In this document: positions 750-5,658 of the stretch, in pieces | Layout of the letters: the number at the start of each line of letters is the position of its first letter | How positions within the stretch are numbered: the first letter of the stretch is position 1 | DNA from: Actinomycetota bacterium | Lineage (GTDB): Bacteria; Actinomycetota; Actinomycetes; Nanopelagicales; Nanopelagicaceae | Direction: 5' to 3' | Assembly (NCBI GenBank): GCA_009698975.1 | Contig: WLPB01000076.1 | Span: 1-5,703 of the forward strand | DNA length: 5,703 bases | Translations under genes and position numbers: made by a program | Notes under the pieces: generated by a model | The model's input: only the letters and a program-made list of their open reading frames with translations | Database searches by the model: none | What the model was told of the DNA's origin: nothing

Positions 750-949
750 TAGTTCGCTCCAGTTATCTACTGCTTAAGCGGTTGCTCACCAGAATCCTTA
801 AGGGCGAAGAGGGCAAACCGGACAATCCGCCGTTCGCGGCAATTGCGATGGCACTGAGGGAAAGAGATCCTCTATTTGAAGGCTTCCACGAGCAAGAAGC
901 AGAGTGGCTTGTACCCGAGCCCCTAGCTTTCTTGCTCATTAACGAGTAG
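749..949 (+). CDS. Possible small ORF or gene remnant without a normal start codon
   Basis: An open plus-strand frame runs from the codon after a TAA at 746-748 to a TAG at 947-949, 66 codons in all. Its translation is acidic and looks protein-like: KGEEGKPDNPPFAAIAMALR near codons 23-42, then ERDPLFEGFHEQEAEWLVPE, ending FLLINE, with no cysteine. I do not recognise the family. There is no ATG or GTG at the beginning. The candidates are ATA at 749, six bases after the purine-rich GGAAAGGGGTG, or TTG at 782 with a poor ribosome site. An ATG-to-ATA change at 749 would explain the good upstream site. The last 11 bp overlap the end of the convergent LamG gene, and no other gene covers 749-938. 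It could be a real small gene, a decaying one, or chance. Confidence 0.3.
   Translation: MVRSSYLLLKRLLTRILKGEEGKPDNPPFAAIAMALRERDPLFEGFHEQEAEWLVPEPLAFLLINE
890..937. repeat. Inverted repeat just past the LamG gene
   Basis: GAGCAAGAA at 890-898 is the exact reverse complement of TTCTTGCTC at 929-937. The stem is 9 bp with a 30-nt loop and can be extended by two G-C pairs across one bulged base. It begins two bases beyond the stop codon of the minus-strand LamG gene, where a transcript-end structure would be expected. There is no T-run after the distal arm, so it is not a classical intrinsic terminator. A 9-bp repeat with this loop range is expected about once by chance in a window this size. 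Confidence 0.3.
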
Positions 950-2024
950 TAGTTCGCTTATTTCCAAAGAAATTTGCACTCGGTGCCCAATTGACGGTCG
1001 CTGAGCCAGATGTCGTATAAGAAACTCGAATGTTAATTGCTCCATGAGTAGCCGGTTTCCATCTACAGATTGCTGTCGTGCTCGTAGGTACAACGCGCTT
1101 GCATCCAGGGATGATCTTTGTATTTTCATAGAATGTGACTCTGCTATTGAGTGGCACCGTTGCAGTTATTGTATTTAGGACTCGGTAAACGGGTGAATTA
1201 CTGGCAAGTGAAAAGCTGGCCGAAGTCACAAATGGCGCGTATCCAAAGTTCTCGCGCTCGACATTAAAGTCATTAAGCACGGTAGCGCTATCGAGTTTTG
1301 AGTTCCACATTCGGAAACGACTGATGTTTCCATTAATCGAGCAAGCCACACAATTTGAGCGTGCATCACTAATCCATAGTTGAGATGAGGTATTTGCAGT
1401 TCTGGTTGCCCCGGTTATCACAGCACCATCGGCCACGCCATTGATATAGAACTGCAAGCTTCCAGCAGTTGTCAGAGTAAAGCCAACCTGATACCAAGTA
1501 TTTAGAGCGAGAGCCGTAGATCCAAACATGTTGGTTTTATTAGTGGTGTAGAGATTAAGGTAACGATTACCGCCGGAGATGCGTGAAGCGAAATGCCAGT
1601 TTTGAGCTTCAGATCCCCCTGCATTAGTAAACCAATGTGAAGCAAGCAGGTTCCATTCGGCATTCCAACTAGAAAACCTCACCCACATCATGAGTGACAT
1701 GTCACCGCTGGGATTTGTTACTGTTCCTACGGCAGATGCGGGAAATGAAGCACCACCGTAGCTGGAAACTCCTGATACTTCTAGGGATCCACCACCGGCA
1801 GAGCTATATGCAGCATTACCTGTAAGAGTTGCTGCAACTGTTCCGCCAGAGACTAGGTCTCTCCAACTTGTGGCTCCTGATGTTGCCAGACTTGAAGGAT
1901 TACTCGCATCTAGTTCTAGAGTCGGAGAGGATGAAATTGCGGCGTTGACGGGGAAGGAAGATCCGAAAAGCCCTAAAGCGAGCAGGAATGTAGCGAGCAC
2001 AAGGCGCGCTACAAAGGTTTTCAC
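939..2024 (-). CDS. Secreted LamG (concanavalin-like) domain protein with C-terminal Cys-pair module
   Basis: This 361-residue protein starts with a Sec signal peptide: MKTFVAR, a hydrophobic core LVLATFLLALGLF, and a likely cut after VNA at residue 28. Residues 35-85 have the usual lead-in to bacterial LamG domains (LELDASNPSSL, SWRDLVSGG, GGSLEVSG). Residues 107-255 fit Laminin_G_3: MSLMMWVRF, WNLLASHWF, WYQVGFTLT, LQFYINGVADG, ISRFRMWNSKL. Such beta-sandwiches bind carbohydrate or other surface ligands; the ligand here is unknown. A CVAC pair sits at 225-228. Residues 267-361 form an Ig-like tail with VTFYENTKIIPGC (Cys308), CRWKP (Cys320) and the terminal RTTTR shared with the protein ending at 5384. 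There is no LPXTG motif or C-terminal membrane helix. The start is GTG at 2024, chosen because a -10 hexamer lies exactly six bases upstream and the signal peptide begins there. It lies 43 bp downstream of the dehydrogenase gene but appears to have its own promoter. Confidence 0.88.
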   Translation of the reverse strand: MKTFVARLVLATFLLALGLFGSSFPVNAAISSSPTLELDASNPSSLATSGATSWRDLVSGGTVAATLTGNAAYSSAGGGSLEVSGVSSYGGASFPASAVGTVTNPSGDMSLMMWVRFSSWNAEWNLLASHWFTNAGGSEAQNWHFASRISGGNRYLNLYTTNKTNMFGSTALALNTWYQVGFTLTTAGSLQFYINGVADGAVITGATRTANTSSQLWISDARSNCVACSINGNISRFRMWNSKLDSATVLNDFNVERENFGYAPFVTSASFSLASNSPVYRVLNTITATVPLNSRVTFYENTKIIPGCKRVVPTSTTAICRWKPATHGAINIRVSYTTSGSATVNWAPSANFFGNKRTTTR

Positions 2025-2067: not shown

Positions 2068-3120
2068 TTACAGCTCAACGCCAATCTGTCTGCGGATTTC
2101 CTCGCCGATTCCAATAATCGCAATTGTCTGAGCATGGGTATGGAATGGGGACTCGAGTAAACCTTGCGATACATAGGAAGCTAAATAGTTTGCTTGGTAA
2201 CAGAGACCTTCATGCCCAACAACCCCGGTCGAGTCTTTCCAATGTGGACCTGTACCGTTAAAGACTGCTTCTTTCAAAGTTAATCCGGAAGGGGTAAAGA
2301 ATGGCGCATCAACTTCGAGCACGCCCTCACTTCCGGACACTGACGCACGCGTAGGTATGTGGCTATATCCCGATGCAGTTACGACAGCCCTTGCGCCAGA
2401 TTCGTATTCGAATACAGCTGATGCCATGGCCTCGGATCGAGCATTGTGAAGTTGTCCTGTAGCAGTGATTTTCTTTGGCAAGCCAAGAACTTGTTCGGTA
2501 AATGCAATGGGATAAATTCCCATATCTTGCGTGATGCTCGCTTCTGGCAACCAGAGACGAGCGATTGCTCGATTATCTTGGCCGAAATCAACTTGAATGA
2601 GGCTAATGTCGCCAAGTAATCCTTGAGCAACAATCTTGCGCATGATGCTCGCTTGCGGAAGATAACGAGACCACATTGCCTCCATTGCGAAGACGCCAGC
2701 TTTCGCTGCAGCTTCATAAAGTACTTTTGCATCCGCTGCTCTAATTGTTGATGGCTTTTCAATCAACACATGCTTACCACTGTTGATTGCAATCAGAGCA
2801 TCTGCAAGATGCGTATGTGGCAGAGTTGCAATGTAGATAACATCAATAGCGTTCTGGTCGCAGAGCGCTTCATATGAATCAAATGTCTGGTCTACGCCGT
2901 ACTTCTGTGCAAGCGTTGCCGCTTTTCCTGGTGTCTTTGAGGCAATGGCTACTACACGTTGTTGAGTATGTTTCTTCAGAGTATCGATGAAGACATCGGC
3001 AATATCTCCTGCGCCAAGAATGCCCCAACGAAGTGATGGCACTGATGCTGGGTCAAGCAGATCTGGCGTAGGGATATCTGAATTCGAAAATCGCCTAACG
3101 ACATCTGAGAACATAGCCAT
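2068..3120 (-). CDS. Gfo/Idh/MocA family NAD(P)-dependent oxidoreductase, dihydrodiol dehydrogenase-like
   Basis: This cytoplasmic dehydrogenase of 350 residues has the two-domain Gfo/Idh/MocA layout. The N-terminal Rossmann domain starts at residue 31 with RWGILGAGDIADVFI, where GAGDIA (36-41) binds the dinucleotide. Next come VVAIASKTPGKA (56-67), DVIYIATLPHTHLADALIAI (93-112) and the hallmark EKP at 121-123, with Lys122 the expected catalytic lysine. The C-terminal domain carries FAMEAMWSRYLP (144-155), characteristic of the trans-1,2-dihydrodiol dehydrogenase / glucose-fructose oxidoreductase-like branch, and GIYPI (201-205). Tyr203, 81 residues after Lys122, is the probable partner. The substrate is probably a sugar, polyol or diol, but the sequence does not decide which. 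About 30 extra residues precede the Rossmann start. The ATG at 3120 is preferred because a -10 box lies exactly six bases upstream; a second ATG at 3114 is less likely. It is divergent from the DUF2087 gene. Confidence 0.93.
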   Translation of the reverse strand: MAMFSDVVRRFSNSDIPTPDLLDPASVPSLRWGILGAGDIADVFIDTLKKHTQQRVVAIASKTPGKAATLAQKYGVDQTFDSYEALCDQNAIDVIYIATLPHTHLADALIAINSGKHVLIEKPSTIRAADAKVLYEAAAKAGVFAMEAMWSRYLPQASIMRKIVAQGLLGDISLIQVDFGQDNRAIARLWLPEASITQDMGIYPIAFTEQVLGLPKKITATGQLHNARSEAMASAVFEYESGARAVVTASGYSHIPTRASVSGSEGVLEVDAPFFTPSGLTLKEAVFNGTGPHWKDSTGVVGHEGLCYQANYLASYVSQGLLESPFHTHAQTIAIIGIGEEIRRQIGVEL

Positions 3121-3208: not shown

Positions 3209-3475
3209 ATGCATGCAGATGTTGAGAAAATCGAGCAGTTCTTTCGTGAGGATGGAACCTTGATAAGCATCCCGGCAAAGAGTTCTAAGCGGCTTGCAGT
3301 CCTGAATCGAATTGCCGGTGAATTTTCTGCTAGGACCAAGTATTCTGAAAAAGAGCTCAACGAAATAGTCGCCCGATTTCACGAAGATACGGCTGCCATA
3401 CGCAGATATATGATTGAAAATGGCATTATGGAGCGTGATCGGGAGAGTGTTTACTGGCTCGCCGAGCGAAATTAG
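3209..3475 (+). CDS. Stand-alone DUF2087 domain protein
   Basis: This 88-residue protein matches the DUF2087 pattern along its whole length: EQFFREDGTLISIPAKSSKR (9-28), VLNRIAGEFSARTKYSEKEL (31-50) with the Y-S-E-x-E-x-N turn, FHEDTAAIRRYMIENGIMER (57-76), and a final VYW. In known proteins this domain is often attached to an ArsR-type helix-turn-helix. Here the domain stands alone with no room for an N-terminal DNA-binding domain, since the upstream in-frame extension adds only 13 residues. It is soluble, with no signal peptide, and its biochemical role is not established. The start at 3209 rests on the -10 box six bases upstream and on the domain boundary. Its stop is 40 bp before the secreted protein starting at 3516, which has its own promoter, so the two need not be functionally linked. 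Confidence 0.85.
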   Translation: MHADVEKIEQFFREDGTLISIPAKSSKRLAVLNRIAGEFSARTKYSEKELNEIVARFHEDTAAIRRYMIENGIMERDRESVYWLAERN

Positions 3476-3515: not shown

Positions 3516-5384
3516 ATGAACAAATGGCTTCGAGCACTTCTCTCGATAGCCCTCCTTGCTCCAATTCTTACAAGTGTCCCTTCTGCAAATGCAGCTGCTT
3601 GCACGGTAACTACCGGGACTGTCTCTGGTACAACGCGATACGCCATATTTAATTCTGGTTCTGCCTGTACTTGGACCGTGCCAACTGGCGCCACTTCGAT
3701 TTCATATCTCATCGTTGGTGGTGGCGGAGGTGGAGGTGGCGCGCGCCAAGCTGCAAACTCTCCTAATCTTGGCGGAGGTGGTGGTGGCGCGGGAGGAGTC
3801 GTGCTCTCTTCCACATTTTCAACGACCGGTGGCACTTCAATAAATCTCACCGTGGGCACAGGTGGTTCCGGTGGCGCTGTTGGTGCAAATGGAACAGCTG
3901 GTGGTGCATCCTCTTTTACATATTCATCTACAACTATCACATCAAATGGTGGCGGAGCTGGCGCTGGATCCAATGATGTGAGTGGACCAACGACACTCTC
4001 CGGAGATGGTGGCTCTAACTCATCTTTCTCAGGTGGAGCCAATGACTGGGATGGCGGCGGCGGTGGTGCGGGTGCAGGAGCAAATGGAAGTGCCGGTATC
4101 GATATTGGTGGCCAAGGAGGAACAGGTGGCGCTGGAGGTGCTGGAGTTTCAAATTCCTTATTAGGTTCTCCAACTTTCTATGGTGGCGGTGGAGGTGGAG
4201 GTGGTACACCAAGTGCCAACTCCTCCGAAGTTGATGGCCTCGGTGGAACCGGTGGAAGTAGCGTTGGAGGAAATGGCGGCGGCGGTGCTGGAACGCAACC
4301 CACCGCGGGCGTTACAAATTCAGGGTCTGGTGGCGGAGGTGGTGGCTGGCGTTACACGAGCTCGGATGCTCTTCGTGCAGGTGCTGCTGGCGCAAGCGGA
4401 AAAATTATTTTTGTCTATACAAAATCAGCGGCAACTATTTCATCGCTCTCAATTACCTCGACATCAGGTGCTGACAGTACCTATTCGATTGGAAATATCA
4501 TCACTGTAACGGTCAGCACAAGCGAGGCAATTACCGTAACTGGATCACCGATTATTCCAATTGTAGGCCTCACATCTAAGAACTTTAACTATTCCTCTGG
4601 AAGCGGCACTTCAACACTCTTATTTACCTACACTGTTTTAACGGGAGATTCATCCACGGCAGGTCTAGCCATCACAGCAAATACCCTCGCTCTGAATTCA
4701 GGAACGATGCTTGATACAGGTGGACTAGCCCTTACTCTCACTCACTCTGCAGTTACTGCCTCCAGTAGTCACAAAGTCGATGGTATTGCCCCAACAATTA
4801 CTGGTACATCATCAATCTCTATTGCTGAGAACACGTCGGTAGTACAAACCTTGGTGGCAAGCGAGACTGGCACCTTCAGTATTATAGGCGGCACTGACAC
4901 TGCATTCTTCACGCTTAACGCAAACACGGGTGTAATGACTATTTCTCCACGCGATTTTGAAAGCCCAGCAGATTCTGATTTGAATAATGTTTACTATATA
5001 AGTGCTCGCTTTATCGATGCCGCTGGCAATGCCTCTGGAAACTACAATTACTTCATCACAATCACAAATCTCGCAGAAGTAGCTGTTATTGGTACGCCTA
5101 CGCTGGCTGCAGCTCCAAAAAAAGGCAATCCTGTAACAATCACAGTCACATCAGATGTAGCAGGTAAGTTCACTTTCTTTGCCAATGGAAAACGTATAGC
5201 TGGATGTCTCAATAAATCAACTACTGGATCATCACCTAATTTTTCAGGTCAATGCACTTGGACTCCGACAACAAGGATTCTGATTAGTTTGTATGTATCT
5301 TTCGTTCCTACTAGTTCACAGACCTCTGGCGGAAATTCTGCGAAGATCTCTGTACTCCCCGGCACCAGAACAACTACGCGCTAG
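3516..5384 (+). CDS. Secreted glycine-rich, Ig-like and cadherin-like surface protein
   Basis: This 622-residue exported protein has a signal peptide (MNKWLRALLSIALLAPILTS, likely cut after ANA at 26). Residues 27-302 fit the bacterial glycine-rich domain: CTWTVPTGATSISYLIVGGG, a long Gly/Ser/Ala region with repeated GGGGGG blocks, and the closing strand GKIIFVYT; Cys29 and Cys51 may pair. Residues 303-425 look like a bacterial Ig-like adhesin domain (STYSIGNIITVTVSTSEAIT, then NYSSGSGTSTLLFTYTVLTGD, ending HKVDGIAPT). Residues 426-520 are cadherin-like (ISIAENTSVVQTL, DTAFFTLNANTGVMTI, DFESPADSDLNNVY, DAAGN), with acidic residues that could bind calcium. Residues 525-622 are the Ig-like tail with FFANGKRIAGC (Cys564), CTWTP (Cys580) and terminal RTTTR, shared with the LamG protein at 939-2024. 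No LPXTG motif or C-terminal membrane helix is present. A role in adhesion or the cell envelope is inferred from domain type. The stop is 4 bp from the convergent zinc-ribbon gene. Confidence 0.9.
   Translation: MNKWLRALLSIALLAPILTSVPSANAAACTVTTGTVSGTTRYAIFNSGSACTWTVPTGATSISYLIVGGGGGGGGARQAANSPNLGGGGGGAGGVVLSSTFSTTGGTSINLTVGTGGSGGAVGANGTAGGASSFTYSSTTITSNGGGAGAGSNDVSGPTTLSGDGGSNSSFSGGANDWDGGGGGAGAGANGSAGIDIGGQGGTGGAGGAGVSNSLLGSPTFYGGGGGGGGTPSANSSEVDGLGGTGGSSVGGNGGGGAGTQPTAGVTNSGSGGGGGGWRYTSSDALRAGAAGASGKIIFVYTKSAATISSLSITSTSGADSTYSIGNIITVTVSTSEAITVTGSPIIPIVGLTSKNFNYSSGSGTSTLLFTYTVLTGDSSTAGLAITANTLALNSGTMLDTGGLALTLTHSAVTASSSHKVDGIAPTITGTSSISIAENTSVVQTLVASETGTFSIIGGTDTAFFTLNANTGVMTISPRDFESPADSDLNNVYYISARFIDAAGNASGNYNYFITITNLAEVAVIGTPTLAAAPKKGNPVTITVTSDVAGKFTFFANGKRIAGCLNKSTTGSSPNFSGQCTWTPTTRILISLYVSFVPTSSQTSGGNSAKISVLPGTRTTTR
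3717..4346 (+). repeat. Glycine-rich low-complexity coding repeat
   Basis: Irregular repetition of GGN codons (GGTGGCGGAGGTGG-like blocks near 3717, 3770, 4054, 4180 and 4328) encodes the Gly runs of the surface protein, separated by Ser/Asn/Thr-rich spacers. The skew opens long spurious frames on other strands, such as a Pro-rich one at 3509-4042. Runs like these are prone to slippage and length variation between strains. Confidence 0.8.
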
Positions 5385-5393
5385 CTATCTAGC
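5380..5393. terminator. Small hairpin containing both convergent stop codons
   Basis: GCTAG, loop CTAT, CTAGC is a perfect 5-bp inverted repeat. The plus-strand stop TAG (5382-5384) lies in one arm and the minus-strand stop (5391-5389) in the other. A weakly T-rich TCTTCTT follows at 5394-5400. It could act as a weak bidirectional terminator, but the stem is short and AT-containing. Confidence 0.25.
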
Positions 5394-5658
5394 TCTTCTT
5401 AAAAATTCTGCTAAATAACGATTTATTTCCAACCTTGCGCGTTGCACGGCGAACCTTTCGCGCCGACGGAGCTCTCTCAATATGGCGAGGCGGATCTTGA
5501 ATAGATTTTTCAAACGCCTCCATCGTGATCGGAGTGGGTTCAGAGCTCTGCCAACCAGATTTATCTAACTTACTCAGAGAGTCTTTTCCGCAATGGGGAC
5601 AGAATTTAGCGAAGCCTGCGACAACTTTGCCACATTGTGGATTTCCGCAGATTGGCAT
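5389..5658 (-). CDS. Small zinc-ribbon protein with basic C-terminal tail
   Basis: This 89-residue protein begins with a zinc ribbon: Cys4 and Cys9 (CGNPQC), then Cys20 and Cys23 (FCPHCGK), giving C-x4-C-x10-C-x2-C. The second knuckle, FCPHCG, is standard for zinc_ribbon_2/DZR-type domains. The first has four residues between cysteines instead of the usual two. Residues 33-58 are polar and probably disordered. Residues 60-89 are strongly basic (RKVRRATRKVGNK, ending FSRIFKKS), which suggests contact with nucleic acid, a ribosomal surface or anionic lipid. No membrane helix is present, and the function is unknown. The ATG at 5658 is preceded by an excellent Shine-Dalgarno, GGGGGAG at 5671-5665, six bases from the start. 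TAACTT at 5686-5681 or TAGAGT at 5691-5686 could be its -10, but the upstream region is cut off by the window edge. Confidence 0.82.
   Translation of the reverse strand: MPICGNPQCGKVVAGFAKFCPHCGKDSLSKLDKSGWQSSEPTPITMEAFEKSIQDPPRHIERAPSARKVRRATRKVGNKSLFSRIFKKS

Follow-up and report, generated by a model that had tools for sequence, protein, structure and literature searches.

In this study, we analysed a stretch of actinobacterial DNA of 5703 bases (the window, by which we mean the whole stretch) that holds two long genes for secreted proteins, a LamG protein and a glycine-rich protein. The features of both, and of the genes around them, are collected in Table 1.

Table 1. Features of the window, with positions counted from its first base; domains are placed by residue of their protein
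Feature	Position	Strand	Basis
LamG protein, 361 aa	939..2024	minus	ORF; signal-peptide-like start by eye from translation
LamG domain PF13385	residues 102-249 of LamG protein
Glycine-rich protein, 622 aa	3516..5384	plus	ORF; signal-peptide-like start by eye from translation
Gly_rich_2 domain PF21722	residues 49-301 of glycine-rich protein
C-terminal Ig-like module, LamG protein residues 267-361	942..1226	minus	homology to 5088-5381; profile matches in many relatives
C-terminal Ig-like module, glycine-rich protein residues 525-622	5088..5381	plus	homology to other window module
Terminal pentapeptide RTTTR, LamG protein	942..956	minus	translation
Terminal pentapeptide RTTTR, glycine-rich protein	5367..5381	plus	translation
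Codon of C308, first conserved cysteine, LamG protein	1101..1103	minus	invariant in 29/29 copies
Codon of C320, second conserved cysteine, LamG protein	1065..1067	minus	invariant in 29/29 copies
Codon of C564, first conserved cysteine, glycine-rich protein	5205..5207	plus	invariant in 29/29 copies
Codon of C580, second conserved cysteine, glycine-rich protein	5253..5255	plus	invariant in 29/29 copies
Neighbour: weak NIPSNAP match	3-284
Neighbour: Lumazine_bd_2	319-693
Neighbour: GFO/IDH/MocA oxidoreductase	2068-3120
Neighbour: DUF2087	3224-3475
Neighbour: weak zinc ribbon match	5389-5658

The first-pass annotation had claimed that the two proteins end in a common module carrying a pair of cysteines while their N-terminal parts differ. 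That observation was right, since the module match is significant, the remainders are unrelated and both proteins bear the same RTTTR. Over the last ~95 residues the two modules are 33% identical across 63 columns (BLASTP of the single pair, E 4e-07), and their Smith-Waterman score of 91 was reached by 0 of 2000 shuffles (shuffle maximum 71), whereas the N-terminal remainders align no better than shuffles, 119 of 500 of which reach their score. The cysteine spacing of 11 and 15 residues was located in the translations at C308/C320 and C564/C580, and the Ig-like sandwich that had been expected is what the structure model predicts, with seven beta strands. Because both cysteines are kept in 29/29 aligned module copies, a disulfide between them is plausible. 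Direct orthologues excepted, the copies are mostly 23-40% identical to the window copy, and their N-terminal partners are LamG, Gly_rich_2, fn3, He_PIG, Flg_new, or none that was recognised.

The module is claimed by no Pfam or NCBIfam model among those scanned, nor is a match to a known CTD or CTERM family listed for it in either collection, and a profile search found no solved relatives below E 0.43. The Big_3_5 family (PF16640), which is of the same fold class, matches 5/14 module copies weakly (best E 1.3e-5), has no row for either window module (for the second, none at E 1) and gives an internal relative 30.7 bits, below the curated cut-off of 35.5; the terminal copies are set apart from it by their cysteine pair and terminal tail. 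No description of the module was found among titles in the open-licence literature searched and, as far as that literature shows, it may be undescribed.

The most regular feature of the module, overlooked in the earlier annotation, is its tail: the LamG and glycine-rich proteins both finish in an identical RTTTR directly before the stop. We counted such ends in G079, a module-rich relative of which 1.37 Mb of about 1.5 Mb was read, with genes called by a simple longest-ORF rule. R-[STAV]-x-x-R-stop closes 17/17 closed module genes and 0/1309 other closed genes, eight of the latter having an R-x-x-x-R end in any form. A profile from which the tail columns had been removed, although built with the G079 rows included, recovers the same 17 genes, each 11-17 residues before the stop, and also finds two internal copies within one module protein (L118:5026-8190), behind which there is no R-x-x-x-R tail. 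Five and four different codons, respectively, encode the two arginines. By a simple rule, 16/17 of the G079 module proteins have a signal-peptide-like start, the 17th being cut by a contig end, and the same rule fires on 241 of the 1309 other closed genes. Neither an LPXTG-like motif nor a C-terminal membrane helix was found in any of the 17, hydropathy over 19-residue spans of the last 70 residues peaking at 1.19. As with C-terminal sorting domains in general, one end domain is thus common to 17 otherwise differing secreted proteins. Many copies per genome, exactly terminal placement, signal-peptide-like starts and varied N-terminal parts all bear out the idea of a portable C-terminal surface-protein module. 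A second kind of tail, roughly C-x-x-GK...CPxG[YF]K, ends the G079 proteins L118:500-2227, L118:8256-9797 and L121:6680-8401, two of which lie directly behind module genes.

Of all 125 distinct module sequences, 105 have the module at most 15 residues from the end; seven of the others are truncated and 13 carry it elsewhere than at the C-terminus. A strict R[STAVIG]xxR end is present in 82 of these 105 and a looser form in 101, in a set that is biased because 57 of its members came from a protein search whose query had the tail; G079 provides the clean count. Outside the genus the tail is looser (RTASR and RRTSR in G037, RRTSRS and KRVSR in G048, RRTSRS in G058), and the single-copy genomes G021, G033, G056 and G061 are without an R-x-x-x-R tail, which counts against the explanation that we prefer below.

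A module query of the genome collection led to two actinobacterial MAG contigs, and the nearest genomes so found, G001 and G002, gave eight and nine matches, respectively, to the alignment of module copies. In the genus of G001, 14/27 genomes have a module match at E 1e-3 and 13 have none. Eight genomes have 8-19 matches each, counts that include some fragments and internal repeats; G017 and G080 have three each and G082 one, while in G062, G066 and G069 the only copy lies early in a ~320-aa protein, close to its N-terminus. A G080 match at positions 15-91 of a 317-aa frame, one of the three in that genome, resembles this N-terminal kind. C-terminal modules were counted in 11 of the 27 (the eight, G017, G080 and G082) and the other 16 were taken as without, C-terminal meaning for most rows that the match reaches the model end, with sequence letters read for a subset of loci. 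In the family sample, which shares six or so genomes with that of the genus, 24/61 genomes match. A C-terminal copy is present in nine of these (G001, G017, G021, G033, G037, G048, G056, G058 and G061), and in the other 15 the copies are confined to the interior of large proteins or lie towards the N-terminus of the ~320-aa protein. In the phylum sample, where at most 12 candidates were scored per genome, 2/396 genomes match at E 1e-6, namely the centre genome and another whose copies are internal, and for this reason the C-terminal form looks restricted to its family. The first-pass annotation had expected a genome search to give many matches, all of them C-terminal. In relatives this held for G079, where matches are many and terminal, and failed elsewhere: other members of the wider family have the same Ig domain within giant proteins or, in the ~320-aa protein, close to the N-terminus, so that "always C-terminal" is true of the G079 set and not of the whole domain family. 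The ~320-aa secreted proteins with an N-terminal Ig domain (L049, L051-L056, L058-L060, L065, L074 and L075) mostly end in AVPKA or similar. In G002 (contig C84), a lone module in a 74-aa ORF (L015:1504-1725), with an internal stop in the longer match and lying tail to tail with an intact module gene, is probably a decayed copy.

G079 also carries a cluster of a SipW-like signal peptidase, several TasA-like short proteins and a polytopic protein of 521 aa. The peptidase (L124:10114-10737) scores 73.6 bits against TIGR02228, over the cut-off of 51.85, and a second copy (L163:2194-2967) scores 50.4, just under it; both are far below the cut-off of the Bacillus SipW model. The short proteins, which we read as putative fibre subunits, combine a cytoplasmic leader with a single membrane helix and share a conserved start of the AANITL...EFGQG kind, and one of them begins directly behind a module gene (L098). 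The name "TasA-like" stands for this reading together with the neighbouring peptidase, since neither a Pfam or NCBIfam family nor a solved TasA sequence matches the putative subunits (nothing below E 0.36 by profile) and their structure model failed (pLDDT 54, unusable). The polytopic proteins of G079 (L124:8559-10121, 521 aa, and L163:2963-4639, 559 aa) have an extracellular-looking N-terminal part and belong to an undescribed family with 114 relatives at E 1e-5 among 8000 candidates scored; no family model was over cut-off, no solved relatives were found by profile below E 0.28 and no catalytic motif was recognised. A scan of G079 proteins for catalytic motifs yielded no candidate that was taken up. 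Subunit-like proteins of ~390-430 aa with extra C-terminal parts, one LamG-like by eye, are found at L097 and L115 in G079 and at L034 in G001. At L034 (contig C37), the frame of the module protein opens with an acidic leader like that of the fibre-like subunits, and 61 bp after the module match comes a subunit gene extended by a long additional C-terminal region.

The putative subunits travel with the C-terminal module. In the genus, the subunit profile matches in 11/27 genomes, 10/11 with C-terminal modules versus 1/16 without (G067; p 1.4e-5), and in the family sample in 10/61, 9/9 with C-terminal modules versus 1/52 of the others (p 5.8e-10), these statistics ignoring kinship and coming from genomes of unstated completeness and purity. 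The 52 divide into 15 genomes with only other copies, none of which has subunits, and 37 with no copy, of which one has (G004). G021, G033, G056 and G061 supply 4/10 of the family subunit rows, and when they and G001 are left out the comparison is 4/4 versus 1/52 (p 1.4e-5). The polytopic protein was found in 9/27 genus genomes, 9/11 with C-terminal modules and 0/16 without, G073 giving a distant partial match and G075 a fragment; in the family sample it was found in 9/61, that is, in 6/9 C-terminal-module genomes and in G004 (partial), G012 and G040 (weak). Exceptions count against our preferred explanation: no polytopic protein was found in G017, G058, G061 and G082 despite their C-terminal modules, G082, with its one module, gives no subunit match, and G067 has seven subunit matches with neither module nor polytopic protein, which may mean that the subunits serve another purpose there or that the genome is incomplete. 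As controls, a ParE-like marker was matched in 27/27 genomes (in G067, G068 and G082 only by a paralogue), and an accessory gene, photolyase-like by reading and absent from the 0.716 Mb read of the module-free relative G029, was found in 20/27, with no clear association (9/10 genomes with at least three module matches versus 11/17, p 0.16), in a control of one gene, which is few. ParE-like identity to G079 is 93-95% in five other module genomes, 91% in G071, G073 and G080 and 89% in G017, overlapping the 90-92% of module-free genomes with a full-length match, which hints, and only hints, that the carriers are perhaps not one tight clade.

With regard to linkage, in G021, G033, G056 and G061 the single module gene and a subunit gene lie next to each other in convergent orientation, the gaps between the two matches being 13, 69, 93 and 46 bp, respectively. 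In G021, G033 and G056 the polytopic gene lies 3.0-3.1 kb from the module match, with two more subunit matches on its other side. In the genus, a subunit match is at most 2 kb away from 6/95 listed module matches, against an expectation of 2.6, and most module genes lie elsewhere; module genes there are only slightly nearer to subunit genes than by chance, which again counts against the explanation that we prefer.

Three known systems offer comparisons. LPXTG/sortase signals of Gram-positive bacteria are likewise C-terminal signals on secreted surface proteins; unlike them, the G079 module proteins have neither the motif nor the membrane helix (17/17). Sortase was rejected as the machinery because it was seen in only 3/27 genus genomes and in 2/11 of those with C-terminal modules; in the remaining 9/11 it was not found. 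In the type IX system of the Bacteroidetes, according to a review, many unrelated cargo proteins combine a signal peptide with a C-terminal Ig-like domain (CTD), and removal of two C-terminal residues already hinders transport (PMC5445135). The likeness to our module lies in this arrangement and would extend to the sensitivity of the end, while the module differs in its actinobacterial host, its cysteine pair and its R-x-x-x-R end. No type IX CTD family was listed for 14 copies scanned against Pfam or 29 against NCBIfam at E up to 10, in scans whose filters dropped most weak matches. TapA of B. subtilis, as described in two papers, has an Ig fold with a disulfide, is encoded with the SipW peptidase and a fibre subunit, acts on fibre assembly and starts TasA fibres through its N-terminal part (PMC10151520, PMC9674648), and its part beyond residue 190 is given in one of them as dispensable for biofilm appearance (PMC10151520). 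An Ig fold beside SipW and a fibre subunit would be common to both, the disulfide of the module being a probable one; on these accounts TapA is one protein acting through an N-terminal strand, whereas the module stands at the C-terminus of many. The 50 matches listed in the fold comparisons of the module did not include TapA, and the likeness is not thereby excluded. In outline, the module resembles both TapA and the type IX CTD, and we do not claim its membership of either.

These findings go beyond the earlier annotation in two respects: the R-x-x-x-R end is nearly invariant, and the module is associated with fibre-like genes. Since the module closes many secreted proteins, carries the same arginine motif and travels with fibre-like genes, it may be an undescribed surface-placement tag. 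Our preferred reading, to us about as likely as not, is a terminus-specific, sortase-independent C-terminal domain that sorts proteins to, or docks them on, a fibre-like surface system. The observed basis of this reading is homology, terminal placement, near-invariant tail, signal-peptide-like starts, no sortase detected in most carriers, gene association, and adjacency in several genomes; the module is real and the partner system a strong candidate, and fibres would be what the module binds. Cargo with ordinary signal peptides, as suggested by the rule-based starts, would be exported by Sec and fold outside, the last ~90 residues forming an Ig-like sandwich, probably held by one disulfide, with R-x-x-x-R as its free carboxyl end. 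Given the strict conservation of the motif on terminal copies, we infer that this arginine-bearing end is recognised outside the membrane. The cargo would then be attached to, or built into, a fibre-like structure of TasA-like subunits processed by the SipW-like signal peptidase, and the polytopic membrane protein of the same cluster may take part. That the subunits form fibres is likewise a supposition, and genome association and gene adjacency suggest that the module would bind either the subunits or the polytopic protein. As to origin, the simplest account would start from one cluster gene, whose C-terminal domain then spread over the genome, its end becoming fixed as R-x-x-x-R along the way. 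The fuller account remains tentative, and we would sooner doubt than accept it as a whole: a sortase-independent display in a monoderm, in which the arginine end of an Ig domain is read by the subunits or the polytopic protein and cargo is mounted on a SipW-processed fibre, the tag having spread from one ancestral fibre-cluster gene to some 17 genes in G079.

It is conceivable, if unlikely, that the module instead ties proteins by its basic end to peptidoglycan or to an acidic wall polymer, with no fibre involved, the gene association reflecting a shared attached lifestyle. A basic end lacking a membrane helix, the failure to find sortase in most carriers and the position of most genus module genes away from subunit genes would all agree with wall binding; against it, of the 52 family-sample genomes that lack C-terminal modules only one has subunit genes, and four genomes have their single module gene directly beside a subunit gene. 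We regard as improbable, and more so than wall binding, that the module is a signal cleaved in the manner of the type IX CTD, directing cargo to translocation or transfer by the polytopic protein or a partner and then being removed. The logic would be the same, with a signal peptide at one end and an Ig-like domain of strict C-terminal end at the other, the loss of two C-terminal residues harms the type IX CTD on the account cited above, and the polytopic protein tracks the module closely (9/11 versus 0/16). However, the families reported by our scans include no type IX CTD match and the polytopic protein has no recognised catalytic motif. An outer membrane is, moreover, not expected in actinobacteria of this kind.

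Just as improbable is that we are dealing with an ordinary structural repeat of the Big_3_5 type that stands last by chance in an expanded family, its tail kept by recent duplication. Such a domain would explain the PF16640 matches in 5/14 copies, with E down to 1.3e-5, and the internal and near-N-terminal copies elsewhere. Against it stand copies that, direct orthologues apart, are mostly 23-40% identical to the window copy and nevertheless keep invariant terminal arginines in mixed codons, the tail-less internal copies of L118:5026-8190, and a subunit association that accompanies terminal copies and is seen in 0/15 genomes with only other copies.

To our knowledge, the placement of proteins on the surface of small-genome actinobacteria of this kind has been little described. 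The cysteine-pair Ig module with its R-x-x-x-R end gives a simple rule for listing the candidate surface proteins of a genome, and the tag points to candidate machinery that could be tested in laboratory strains. If the docking of tagged proteins on a fibre-like system is true, it would add a sortase-free route for mounting proteins on fibres to the routes already known.
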